IMG/VR virus record: IMGVR_UViG_3300025093_000092
Span: 1-28,740 of that record
Source: a virus
Length of the DNA: 28,740 bases
Direction: 5' to 3' (one strand)
The notes below the pieces were generated by a model. It saw only the letters and a program-made list of their open reading frames with translations, had not been told where the DNA came from and did not search any database. This document shows, in pieces, positions 12,560 through 28,452 of the stretch. The first letter of the stretch is position 1. Each line of letters opens with the position of its first letter. The translations under genes and the position numbers were made by a program.

Positions 12560-14182
12560 ATGGAAAATAAATTTATAGAAATATTTACAGGTCTTAAAAG
12601 AGACTATGGTTATGCAGATATAAACTCTGCATACAAAGATCCTGCCACAGGAAAGTTAAAATTAAAATATGGTTGGGCAGCTAAACCATTAATTGAGTCT
12701 GATTATTTAGATCATTTATCTGGTAAAAAATCTATTGGGATTCAACCATGTAATGATGAAGGACTCGCAAAGTTTGGAGCAATTGATATTGACTCTGACG
12801 AATATGACAACTTTGATTTAAGAAAATATTTAGAAATTATTGACAAGAAAAATATTCCTGTAGTACCCGTTAAATCTAAAAGTGGTGGGCTACATATTTA
12901 TGTGTTCTTTAAAGAACCAGTCAAAGCAAGTTTTGTAAGAAATTTTTTAGATAAACTTTTATTTACTTTTGATTTAAAAGCATCAACAGAAATATTTCCG
13001 AAACAAACACAACTAGGTGTAGGTTCAGATCAAAAACCTATCAACGGTAACTTTATTAATTTACCTTATTATAATCGTAATGAAAGAGTAGGTGTTAATT
13101 TAGATGGTACGGAGTTTACCTTTGACCAATTTATAAAAGTCGTCGAGGCTAACACAAAAACAAAAGAAGAGCTAGAAGAATTTGCTAATGAATTAATTAG
13201 ATTAGAACTTACGGGTGGTGCAGATGAATTTATAGATGGCCCTGTATGTCTACAAAGACTCTCTAAAAATAAACTCGATGATTATAGAGACAGGTTTATT
13301 TATAATTATATGGTCTTTGCTAAAAAGAAATATCCAGATAATTGGGAAGAAAAACTTTTAGAAGGTGCCAGGAACTATATTGTTTACGATAACATTTGGG
13401 GAGATGAAAAAGTAAAACAAAAAATAAAAGCATACAAAAAAGAAACTGCTGGTCATACTTGTTCAGAAGAACCTATTAATAGTATGTGTGTTAAATCAGA
13501 ATGTCTTAAAAGAAAATTTGGTGTGGCCTCTGATAAAGTTAAAAAATTTCCAACATTATCTGCATTAATTAAAATAGATTATTCACCAGATCCTGAATTT
13601 AGATTTACGGTACATTACAATGATAAAATAGAAGGCGAAACCACACAACAAATAATCGCTAGAGATATTAATTACATCATGGACCAAGAAAAATTAAGAC
13701 GTTTAATTGGAGCACATACCCCTATTCCACCACCACGAATTAAAGGTGATGATATGCAAAATATTTTAGATACTCTATGGCAGGGAATGAAAACAGAAAA
13801 AGCTCCTCCTGGAACATCACCAAAAGAAGTATTACATAAACATTTAGAAGATTATATACACGGCGTTCCAGCAGTAAGTGATGCAGCATTCAGAAGTGGT
13901 AGTACCTTAATTGATGCTGATGGCTTTGCTTATTTTGTGTTTGATCCTTTTTATAATTTTTTAAAAAATAAAGAATGGAAAGCAAAGATTGATCGAACTG
14001 GACAAATGTTAATGGATTTTTTTGAGGCCGAACTTCGACATCCTAAAAGATATCCTAAAAAGAATACAGAAAAAAAATCTAACAACCCGGTAAGATGCGT
14101 AAAAATTTCTATGACCTACTTTCAAAAAGAAGAGAACGAAGTAGAGATCATACCTATGAAGAGTAAAAAAGATATTCTTTAA
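12560..14182 (+). CDS. Archaeo-eukaryotic-type primase (TOTE-like AEP)
   Basis: 540 residues. The N-terminal half shows the metal-binding DxD of archaeo-eukaryotic primases in GAIDIDSDEYD (D76, D78) and the sxH motif in SKSGGLHIYVFF (H112), as in TOTE/primase-polymerase proteins. A central Cys group (C301, C310, C315) after His299 resembles a small metal-binding or iron-sulfur insert. The C-terminal third is helical and of unknown fold. The predicted role is RNA or DNA primer synthesis at the fork, feeding the PolA at 16066. The stop shares one base with the next start (TAATG), coupling it to the UvrD-like helicase. I see no hexameric-helicase domain fused to it. Confidence 0.85.
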   Translation: MENKFIEIFTGLKRDYGYADINSAYKDPATGKLKLKYGWAAKPLIESDYLDHLSGKKSIGIQPCNDEGLAKFGAIDIDSDEYDNFDLRKYLEIIDKKNIPVVPVKSKSGGLHIYVFFKEPVKASFVRNFLDKLLFTFDLKASTEIFPKQTQLGVGSDQKPINGNFINLPYYNRNERVGVNLDGTEFTFDQFIKVVEANTKTKEELEEFANELIRLELTGGADEFIDGPVCLQRLSKNKLDDYRDRFIYNYMVFAKKKYPDNWEEKLLEGARNYIVYDNIWGDEKVKQKIKAYKKETAGHTCSEEPINSMCVKSECLKRKFGVASDKVKKFPTLSALIKIDYSPDPEFRFTVHYNDKIEGETTQQIIARDINYIMDQEKLRRLIGAHTPIPPPRIKGDDMQNILDTLWQGMKTEKAPPGTSPKEVLHKHLEDYIHGVPAVSDAAFRSGSTLIDADGFAYFVFDPFYNFLKNKEWKAKIDRTGQMLMDFFEAELRHPKRYPKKNTEKKSNNPVRCVKISMTYFQKEENEVEIIPMKSKKDIL

Positions 14183-26155: not shown

Positions 26156-26193
26156 TAAAGTCAACGGACAAAGTGTCGCGGCTCGAGAGGAGA

Positions 26194-26214
26194 GCTTGTG
26201 GGCGGGACCCGCCC
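26194..26214. repeat. GC-rich palindromic repeat, copy 1
   Basis: GCTTGTGGGCGGG then A then CCCGCCC. In this copy the central stem GGGCGGG-A-CCCGCCC is a perfect palindrome. It is preceded by GAGAGGAGA, similar to the flank of copies 3 and 5. From here to 26477 there is no convincing gene, but a series of hairpins and the parS-like site. Confidence 0.65.
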
Positions 26215-26243: not shown

Positions 26244-26307
26244 TGAACCTTGACCTGTTGGCTTGTGGCCTGTGGCCTGTGGACGTCGCTTGCGGACTGT
26301 GATGCGT

Positions 26308-26328
26308 GCTTGTGGGCGGGACCCACCC
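26308..26328. repeat. GC-rich palindromic repeat, copy 2
   Basis: GCTTGTGGGCGGG then A then CCCACCC, followed by AA and seven T. The stem has one conserved C/A mismatch relative to copy 1. The T-run makes it terminator-like on the plus strand. Upstream CTGTGAT and downstream layout are shared with copy 4. Confidence 0.65.
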
Positions 26329-27098: not shown

Positions 27099-27126
27099 AA
27101 TATAGGTTATTGTAGGATATTGTCAA
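27099..27126 (-). promoter_or_regulatory. Promoter of the GP88-like gene with TAGGATATT motif
   Basis: Minus strand: TTGACA (27121-27126), a 16-bp spacer, TATATT (27099-27104), 6 bases, then ATG at 27092. The spacer contains the recurrent motif (TAGGATATT on plus, 27113-27121) and is almost the same as the spacer of the promoter at 27784. Confidence 0.7.
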
Positions 27127-27155
27127 CAGTTAAAATTTTTTATTTTTAGAGAAGA

Positions 27156-27176
27156 GCGTGTGGGCGGGACCCACCC
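27156..27176. repeat. GC-rich palindromic repeat, copy 3
   Basis: GCGTGTGGGCGGG then A then CCCACCC, preceded by TAGAGAAGA, a flank shared with copy 5. It lies 30 bases upstream of the GP88-like promoter. Confidence 0.65.
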
Positions 27177-27200
27177 CGTGACTTGTTGCCTGTGATTAGT

Positions 27201-27221
27201 GCTTGTGGGCGGGACCCACCC
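27201..27221. repeat. GC-rich palindromic repeat, copy 4
   Basis: Same 21-bp sequence as copy 2 and, like it, followed by a T-run (eight T from 27225) and preceded by CTGTGAT. Terminator-like on plus. Confidence 0.65.
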
Positions 27222-27233
27222 ATATTTTTTTTG

Positions 27234-27280
27234 CTTGTGGCCCATTTCTGAATATATCAGCCAGGGCCACAAGATATTTT
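27234..27280 (+). terminator. 10-bp stem terminator before the structured region
   Basis: CTTGTGGCCC (27234-27243) pairs exactly with GGGCCACAAG (27264-27273). The loop can form a small CTGA/TCAG stem. ATATTTTT follows. It isolates the next segment from upstream plus-strand transcription. Its position after copy 4 repeats the layout of copy 2 plus the hairpin at 26348. Confidence 0.6.
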
Positions 27281-27299
27281 TGGGGTCACAATTTATAGA

Positions 27300-27618
27300 G
27301 CCGTACACCCTCACAAATCGAACTCTTGATCAGTAGTCGGTGCCCTATCGCCGTTCGAGATATTTCAACGCGATGAAATACCAGCGATTCACTTCCCGCT
27401 ACTGATCCCAGGTCGGTGGAAAAAGACACTTGCGCGACCATGGTATAACAATCTCACCGACCTGGGATCAGCACCCAGGAAAGACGGCCAACGTAAAGTA
27501 GCGGTGTGATCCTGGATCTGATCTTTGAGGGTTTCCCAATTTTAAGTGTAGTACAACCCCACAATCGAACACTCGATCCAGGGTGATGATTTGGGTACCC
27601 CCTGGATCTATATTTTTT
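27300..27618 (+). ncRNA. Candidate structured non-coding RNA, 50% GC
   Basis: No open frame of 60 codons lies within this stretch. I counted 150 G/C in 27301-27600, against about one third in the genes. A 17-bp perfect inverted repeat pairs 27402-27418 with 27455-27471, nested in CCGCTAC/GTAGCGG (27396-27402, 27498-27504). An exclusive alternative pairs 27328-27336 with 27399-27407. The 3' end is a 9-bp stem (27575-27583, 27600-27608) and six T, like an intrinsic terminator; CTGGATC at 27512-27518 could capture its 5' arm as an anti-terminator. Two related units (27303-27336, 27551-27583) carry an AUCGA hairpin whose G-C in one copy is G-U in the other, favouring plus-strand RNA. No promoter is clear, and no known RNA family is recognised. 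Confidence 0.55.
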
Positions 27619-27663
27619 ATTTCACCAAACTAGAATAAAAAACATAAAATCAACTTAACAGAA

Positions 27664-27692
27664 TATCCTATAATAACAAGGACAATATTGTC
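27664..27692. promoter_or_regulatory. TATCCTATAATAA motif plus GACAATATTGTC palindrome
   Basis: TATCCTATAATAA (27664-27676) repeats exactly at 27792-27804. A perfect 12-bp palindrome follows at 27681-27692. No convincing -35/-10 pair uses them, so they look like operator sites. The stretch 27619-27855 holds otherwise only repeat copy 5 and the next promoter. Confidence 0.5.
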
Positions 27693-27727
27693 GCACCTAA
27701 TTTAGAATCATTCTAAAGTAGAGAAGA

Positions 27728-27748
27728 GCATGTGGGCGGGTCCCACCC
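27728..27748. repeat. GC-rich palindromic repeat, copy 5
   Basis: GCATGTGGGCGGG then T then CCCACCC, preceded by TAGAGAAGA as in copy 3. The centre base is T here, A in the others. It lies about 36 bases before the promoter at 27784. Confidence 0.65.
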
Positions 27749-27855: not shown

Positions 27856-28452
27856 ATGCAACCATTAAGAAAAGACCACGTTGATAGGTGGAGTGAGTTT
27901 GTACGAGATGAATTCGGAATTGCTTTTAATAGAGCAGAAGAAGAAATCGAAGTACAAGCGCAAGAGAAAGTTGAAGAAGTTGGTAAAGATTTTGCCAAGG
28001 AACTTAAACTTAATCTTAAAATAAAAGAGTTGGATAAAAGCGTAAATGCGTTGAGAGATTTCCAAGATAAGAAACAATCTATGGAAAATGATTTACGTTA
28101 TAAAGCTCAAAAAATCGCTGATGAAATTTCAGAGATTTATAACAATAGTAAAAAAAGACGTAAATGGGATATGAATAACATCTCTATTGATATTAAAGAT
28201 GACAACGATCCTGTTGAATACATAACAAAGCGAATTAAAAAAGCTTGTTATGAAGAAGCAAAACGTCATTTTACAGCGAAGCATAAGTTGTATCATGCTT
28301 TAGATCAAAAACGTAAAAAGTGTTTGAATATACTTTATACAGGCAGTCATATTCAACCGACTTTAAATGAGTTATCTAAAGAAATGAAAACCGCTAACAT
28401 TCAATTAGATTTACCTAATTCTTTATTAGCTTTACCAAGTGGAGCGAAATAA
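27856..28452 (+). CDS. Helical coiled-coil hypothetical protein
   Basis: 198 residues, almost fully helical and highly charged. A coiled coil spans about residues 20-100 (Glu/Lys-rich with regular Leu, Ile and Val). A basic segment, SKKRRKW, follows near residue 98, and a second helical region carries many Lys, His and Arg (VEYITKRIKKACYEEAKRHF). AAAGGA is 8 bases before the ATG. No family is recognised. Being under the strongest promoter, it may be an early, abundant protein; DNA binding or scaffolding is possible but unproven. Confidence 0.7.
   Translation: MQPLRKDHVDRWSEFVRDEFGIAFNRAEEEIEVQAQEKVEEVGKDFAKELKLNLKIKELDKSVNALRDFQDKKQSMENDLRYKAQKIADEISEIYNNSKKRRKWDMNNISIDIKDDNDPVEYITKRIKKACYEEAKRHFTAKHKLYHALDQKRKKCLNILYTGSHIQPTLNELSKEMKTANIQLDLPNSLLALPSGAK

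Follow-up and report, generated by a model that had tools for sequence, protein, structure and literature searches.

We propose that the gap between two divergent genes of a pelagiphage-related genome encodes a phage noncoding RNA built from exchangeable, combinatorial modules, which lies on the strand of the adjoining GP88-family gene, carries loops able to pair with their own copies, and would thus be multivalent and self-assembling; we put the probability of this reading at roughly 60%. The window (the whole 28,740-base virus record analysed here) is related to HTVC023P-type pelagiphages and encodes DNA polymerase A, a UvrD-type helicase and a TOTE-type primase. The protein encoded at 12560–14182 has a TOTE conflict-system archaeo-eukaryotic primase domain (PF22548), and apparently serves here as the phage primase. 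SAR11 bacteria, the most abundant in the ocean, have HTVC023P-type phages among their abundant viruses.

The modular structured RNA array occupies 27225–27640 on the minus strand, that is, in the GP88 direction (both ends are approximate, and were set by comparison with 168 homologous gaps). It fills the space between the GP88-family gene (PF17338; 26478–27092, minus strand) and a divergent 198-aa gene, O198 (27856–28452, plus strand), which form the two flanks of the locus. The nearest named relative of the window GP88 is in Pelagibacter phage HTVC027P (48%). The structural model of GP88 is of low confidence (pLDDT 62) with no PDB match at E < 0.001, and a sequence search of the PDB returned nothing convincing, so that this neighbouring gene offers no clue to the array; the predicted structure of O198 is mostly helical and also of low confidence. 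The initial annotation had singled out the region as an island of high GC (27301–27600 is indeed 50% GC, compared to ~33% for the genome) containing a candidate large structured RNA of no recognised family, noncoding and with mutually exclusive pairings, and had named a phage ncRNA among its possible identities. This description holds, and the region is probably a phage ncRNA. Rfam searches of the window at gathering and relaxed thresholds gave no match, and a tRNA/tmRNA search of the window found none. A coding origin was rejected, the arrays being mostly without open reading in any frame.

Architecture and fold of the array

The array is composed of two kinds of unit. The y units have the form CUGAUCCC-U-GGUC-(loop)-GACC-U-GGGAUCAG, and each x unit is flanked by a y unit on either side and closed by GGGAUCAG...CUGAUCCC. 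The hairpin domains abut directly, linked through the half-arms CUGAUCCC and GGGAUCAG, and since a half-arm can close the unit to its left or the unit to its right, the folds are mutually exclusive; such folds are present in all multi-unit arrays. Both octamers are nearly invariant across 156 non-redundant y units, in 129 of which position 9 is a U·U mismatch. Positions 10–17 of the y units are 87% paired, compared to 66 ± 1% when the 3' arms are permuted (z 23.8, n = 156), pairing drops to 45–48% when the stem register is shifted by one, and all four Watson-Crick pairs occur at positions 14–17. Stems within x units covary too (z 9.3). These computations establish both the structure of the array and its covariation; the initial annotation had named compensatory change in homologues as a test of its proposal, and such change proved to be massive.

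The long abutting stems would suit RNase III and the modules act as separate units, as might be expected if the array were cut by RNase III-type cleavage into separate small regulatory RNAs that silence host mRNAs by base pairing. We regard this as highly unlikely, given that no conserved single-stranded seed was seen and that conservation falls on structured motifs and palindromes.

The window RNA folds on the minus strand as x-y-x, flanked by a 5' hairpin and a 3' motif. The central y module (27402–27471, minus strand), with half-arms CUGAUCCC / GGGAUCAG, has homologous modules in the related loci L031, L191 and L176, and the 8-nt palindrome in its loop, ACCAUGGU (27437–27444, minus strand), is our proposed homotypic kissing site. 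Its stem is the 17-bp perfect hairpin (27402–27418 / 27455–27471) already noticed in the initial annotation, which had also described an exclusive partner for the hairpin's 5' flank; we recovered this partner as GATCAGTAG at 27328–27336, pairing with 27399–27407. The 3' x module (27328–27407, minus strand), closed by GAUCAGUAG / CUACUGAUC, excludes the outer half of the 17-bp stem and recurs in locus L006 (94% over 87 nt). The 5' x module, GAUCAG-AUCCAGG...CCUGGGUG-CUGAUC (27466–27523, minus strand), is taken from the fold, and its outer stem shows compensatory changes in L015 and L024 (judged by eye). The 5'-most hairpin (27575–27608, minus strand) reads on the plus strand as a terminator-like stem with a T-run; the 3' motif GAGUUCGAUUUGUGAGGGUGUACGGCUC (27296–27323, minus strand) is kept in phage 023Pt_psg01 with its flanking stem changed; and a hairpin CTTGTGGCCC...GGGCCACAAG (27234–27273, strand unassigned) marks the left edge of the array. 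The minus-strand fold reaches −156 kcal/mol, and on either strand the fold beats all 100 shuffles (z −4.2 on plus, z −6.2 on minus). The plus strand favours the 17-bp hairpin (outer pairs p 0.94); the minus strand favours the alternative pairing (p 0.99 vs 0.15), the two folds lying 3.2 kcal/mol apart.

Strand and transcription

Wobble pairs decide the strand, since each G-U pair would be A-C on the other strand. Units with more G-U on the GP88 strand outnumber those with more on the opposite strand by 34 to 6 in the window's subtype and by 39 to 3 in the HTVC027P subtype. The HTVC027P locus also contains a 90-bit match to RF02976 on the GP88 strand, between array and GP88 (as does locus L208), and a sigma-70-type promoter, TTGACAATAGGATAGTCAAGnATTATATT, lies upstream of the array, again on that strand, in 53 of 60 HTVC027P-subtype gaps, compared to 5/60 in shuffles. 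The array RNA is thus placed on the minus strand. The initial annotation had assumed the plus strand, which we too favoured at first for its T-runs and dropped on the G-U count, the promoters and RF02976. Its terminator-like stem with T-run (27588–27608, plus strand) and a second such stem upstream (27205–27219, plus strand) are both present, but the terminator and the CTGGATC supposed to compete for it are on the plus strand, and so do not form the 3' end of a minus-strand RNA. Terminator positions were mixed as strand evidence and were discarded: in scans of both strands, 23 of 100 arrays had an intrinsic terminator at the expected 3' end, and 44 of 100 had one on the opposite strand, at the opposite end.

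The array is probably transcribed in the window's subtype too, but only 5 of 40 arrays of this subtype have a recognisable sigma-70 promoter on the RNA strand, close to the 4 found in shuffles. A conserved block with a 12-bp palindrome, GGTGCGACAATATTGTCCTTGTTATTATAGGATATTCT (27660–27698, minus strand), is kept in O198-type relatives and is a candidate promoter/operator for the array in this subtype; it has no good sigma-70 match, and promoter scans of it were weak. Two further palindromes, GACAATATTGTC (27681–27692) and TTTAGAATCATTCTAAA (27701–27717), are kept upstream of the O198 gene in relatives and are possibly an operator and a hairpin. The repeat GAGAAGAGCnTGTGGGCGGGACCCACCC occurs in five copies in the window (26185–26214, 26299–26328, 27147–27176, 27192–27221 and 27719–27748) and in several copies per relative, often beside a promoter of the TTGACA type or with a T-run after it, and appears to be a dispersed promoter/terminator cassette.

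In HTVC027P, gp33 (GP88) and gp34 lie downstream of the array on the same strand, and infection RNA-seq places them in a temporal class of their own, high at 6–9 hpi (PMC12753301), which is indirect evidence for expression of the array. The RNA-seq paper makes no mention of noncoding transcripts, and reports a peptidase C33-associated domain in gp34 (PMC12753301); the annotated gp34 is 46 aa long (L002 4481–4621) and had no Pfam match here. We found nothing relevant in the literature on pelagiphage noncoding RNA, and the words intergenic and noncoding are absent from a survey of 82 HTVC023P-type genomes.

An array lying directly upstream of GP88 on the same strand, with mutually exclusive folds and, in HTVC027P, with gp34 and gp33 downstream on its strand, could be a long cis-acting 5' leader of GP88; an attenuator or riboswitch had been offered in the initial annotation. 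We consider this interpretation improbable. GP88 in the window has its own promoter (TTGACA-16-TATATT, 27099–27126, minus strand), which ends 6 nt ahead of the ATG, so that its mRNA is probably leaderless, and intrinsic terminators separate array from GP88 in 23 of 100 arrays. We found no conserved ligand-binding core; the whole array is replaced between relatives with nearly identical flanks, and the wholesale replacement of modules while GP88 stays nearly unchanged is unlike a fixed-ligand sensor.

Exchange of modules at a fixed locus

A search of IMG/VR by pattern, using two arms of the y-type hairpin, returned at least 120 stretches. A GP88-type gene adjoins the array and points away from it in 160 of the 182 array loci gathered, and each of the seven long genomes with a match has the pattern at a single site. 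HTVC023P itself has neither such a hairpin nor a GP88 match, and a search of 84,980 prokaryote genomes for the y-hairpin pattern found no exact match. The divergent gene is either of the 198-aa type or of the 333-aa type of HTVC027P, and the gap between it and GP88 ranges from 178 to 2127 nt in related viral contigs. The y hairpin is missing from 10 of 115 complete gaps, the smallest of which (L013, L014 and L028) resemble empty sites, and the array is therefore dispensable; other complete gaps hold 1–3 hairpins of one type.

Array sequence is replaced far faster than the adjoining genes. In 178 pairs of phages whose GP88 identity is 93% or more, a median of only 1.5% of array 11-mers (counted without the linkers) were common to both members, and sharing was below 5% in 110 of these pairs. 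In the extreme case of L071 and L051 the flanking proteins are 98.5% and 97.5% identical, and no array 11-mers are shared. The same inner motif is found in x and y units, thus modules move between frames as well as being swapped between genomes; 138 modules remained singletons under the clustering threshold applied.

Such hypervariability at a fixed locus, together with the recurrence of modules with conserved internal motifs and the dispensability of the array, would also be expected of a trans-acting decoy or antagonist. Its modules would be aptamer-like decoys for a host or competitor factor (a defence nuclease or an RNA-binding protein), fast exchange would reflect an arms race, and the palindromes would be incidental or suited to dimeric proteins. 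This explanation is compatible with self-assembly, but alone it does not predict loop palindromes that covary as palindromes up to 8 nt, and no target is known; we judge it rather unlikely.

Self-complementary loops and comparison with known RNAs

The covarying palindromes in the loops are the strongest hint of mechanism. Among 123 apical loops predicted with a length of 6 nt or more, 24 hold a 6-nt palindrome (~80% of these loops have none), compared to 7.6 ± 2.5 in loop shuffles, and none of 1000 shuffles reached 24. There was no excess in coding sequence (26 of 640 loops) or in modules with shuffled interiors (23 of 482). Within module families, unlike palindromes replace each other at the same position: CTGCAG, CCGCGG, CCCGGG and CTCGAG in one (9/9 members), CCATGG, CTATAG and TCATGA in a second, and CGTACG and CGCGCG in a third. 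The window's y-module family has five 8-nt palindromes at one site (ACCAUGGU, GCCAUGGC, GCCUAGGC, GGCUAGCC and GGUUAACC); the replacements in this family of the central module read ACCATGGT, GCCATGGC, GCCTAGGC, GGCTAGCC and GGTTAACC. Across 52 module families, 12 columns contain at least two distinct palindromes, compared to 1–3 for three control symmetries, and in 11 columns every variant is palindromic, compared to 0 for the controls. The overall excess of 8-nt palindromes is partly due to short stems with palindromic tetraloops, and we therefore relied on the apical-loop and covarying-palindrome tests instead. As an 8-nt palindrome is unable to pair fully with itself in one molecule, the palindromes are naturally read as sites at which two copies pair; the replacement of palindromes by unlike palindromes indicates homotypic loop-loop pairing between RNA copies, from which we infer oligomerisation.

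The inverted repeats, the mosaic pattern of recombination at conserved arms, the 6-bp palindromes among the loop words and the presence of terminase genes nearby could bring to mind an element acting as DNA, such as sites for recombination, replication or packaging, or decoys for restriction-type enzymes. However, the one-strand G-U bias and the RNA family on the same strand show selection on RNA, and the palindromes reach 8 nt and vary freely, unlike fixed enzyme sites, which makes this reading hardly probable at all.

We therefore return to the self-assembling RNA as our preferred reading. A transcript of the GP88 strand would fold into a string of abutting hairpin domains, with the half-arms CUGAUCCC and GGGAUCAG pairing inside their own unit or with a neighbour's arm. 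Many domains present self-complementary loops of 6–8 nt, by which two RNA copies could pair loop to loop, so that dimerisation seems probable, and several such loops per RNA may yield a multivalent, self-assembling scaffold. Whole modules are exchanged between phages, in our reading by recombination, and palindromes would drift only to other palindromes, leaving each lineage's RNA able to recognise itself. Computation establishes the locus, the strand, the covariation of the stems, the exchange of modules and the covarying palindromes. Speaking against the proposal are the terminators on both strands, the lack of a recognisable promoter in most arrays of the window's subtype, the many apical loops without a palindrome and the gaps that have no y hairpin. 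The use of the assembly, which may be a scaffold or a sequestering particle during infection, is the most speculative step. HTVC027P infection yields cells without detectable rRNA signal (PMC11066056), and nothing ties such cells to the array RNA.

OLE, ROOL and GOLLD, RNAs that assemble into homo-oligomers of RNA alone (PMC12286853), come closest to the array in behaviour; oligomerisation of the array is predicted from its covarying palindromes. Like the array these are large structured ncRNAs whose function is poorly understood, and GOLLD and ROOL occur in phages or prophages. Unlike them, the array has no fixed global fold, being a string of modules at one locus whose content varies between near-identical phages, and neither the window nor 60 related loci have an Rfam match to GOLLD, ROOL or OLE.

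The only Rfam family matched in the 60 related loci was Flavobacterium-1 (RF02976), with one copy in the array locus, on the same strand, in HTVC027P (L002 4704–4824) and L208 (778–899). In pelagiphages its 3' hairpin has the interchangeable palindromes CGUGCACG, CGUCGACG and CUGAUCAG, as in the array. Unlike the array it is a single 121-nt fold that is also found elsewhere in these genomes. A further ~45 marine viral contigs have copies, and the family is widespread in HTVC023P-type pelagiphages, with copies both by the array and at other sites. The window lacks a copy above the gathering score, and a genome scan for the Flavobacterium-1 core gave mostly chance matches.

Palindromic loops are also found in the HIV-1 DIS, in which a 6-nt self-complementary apical loop pairs two RNA copies and the palindromes differ between lineages; the array is unrelated, and has many modules and several loops per molecule. 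The PeSLs of T4-type phages are short structured intergenic elements, consisting of a promoter plus a terminator, that mark the places where modules are shuffled. The GAGAAGAGC..GGGCGGGACCCACCC elements flanking the array resemble PeSLs, although the array itself does not. A retron ncRNA was rejected as neighbouring genes have no reverse-transcriptase match (Pfam, PHROGs), and a CRISPR-like array because the sequence that stays constant consists of inverted half-arms and the sequence that varies forms covarying structures, rather than near-identical direct repeats and unstructured unique spacers.

To our knowledge, no known RNA class strings exchangeable structured modules together at a constant locus while conserving self-complementarity. 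The array RNA could thus be categorically new, although a stricter reader could see a variant of the large phage ncRNAs. More tentatively, and as one possibility suggested by the sequences, it may be a combinatorial self-recognition RNA of an abundant marine phage group, whose hairpin loops pair exclusively with their own copies and which forms a lineage-specific multimer in the infected cell, with traded modules and diverging palindromes giving rise to new specificities. A noncoding RNA that exchanges structured modules at one locus and keeps its loops self-complementary would represent a new RNA architecture, and its kissing-loop domains a natural library. It would also offer a testable way into why phages carry large RNAs that associate with themselves, a question that is open for GOLLD and ROOL, and as the cultured pair HTCC1062 / HTVC027P already has infection RNA-seq, the key predictions are testable.
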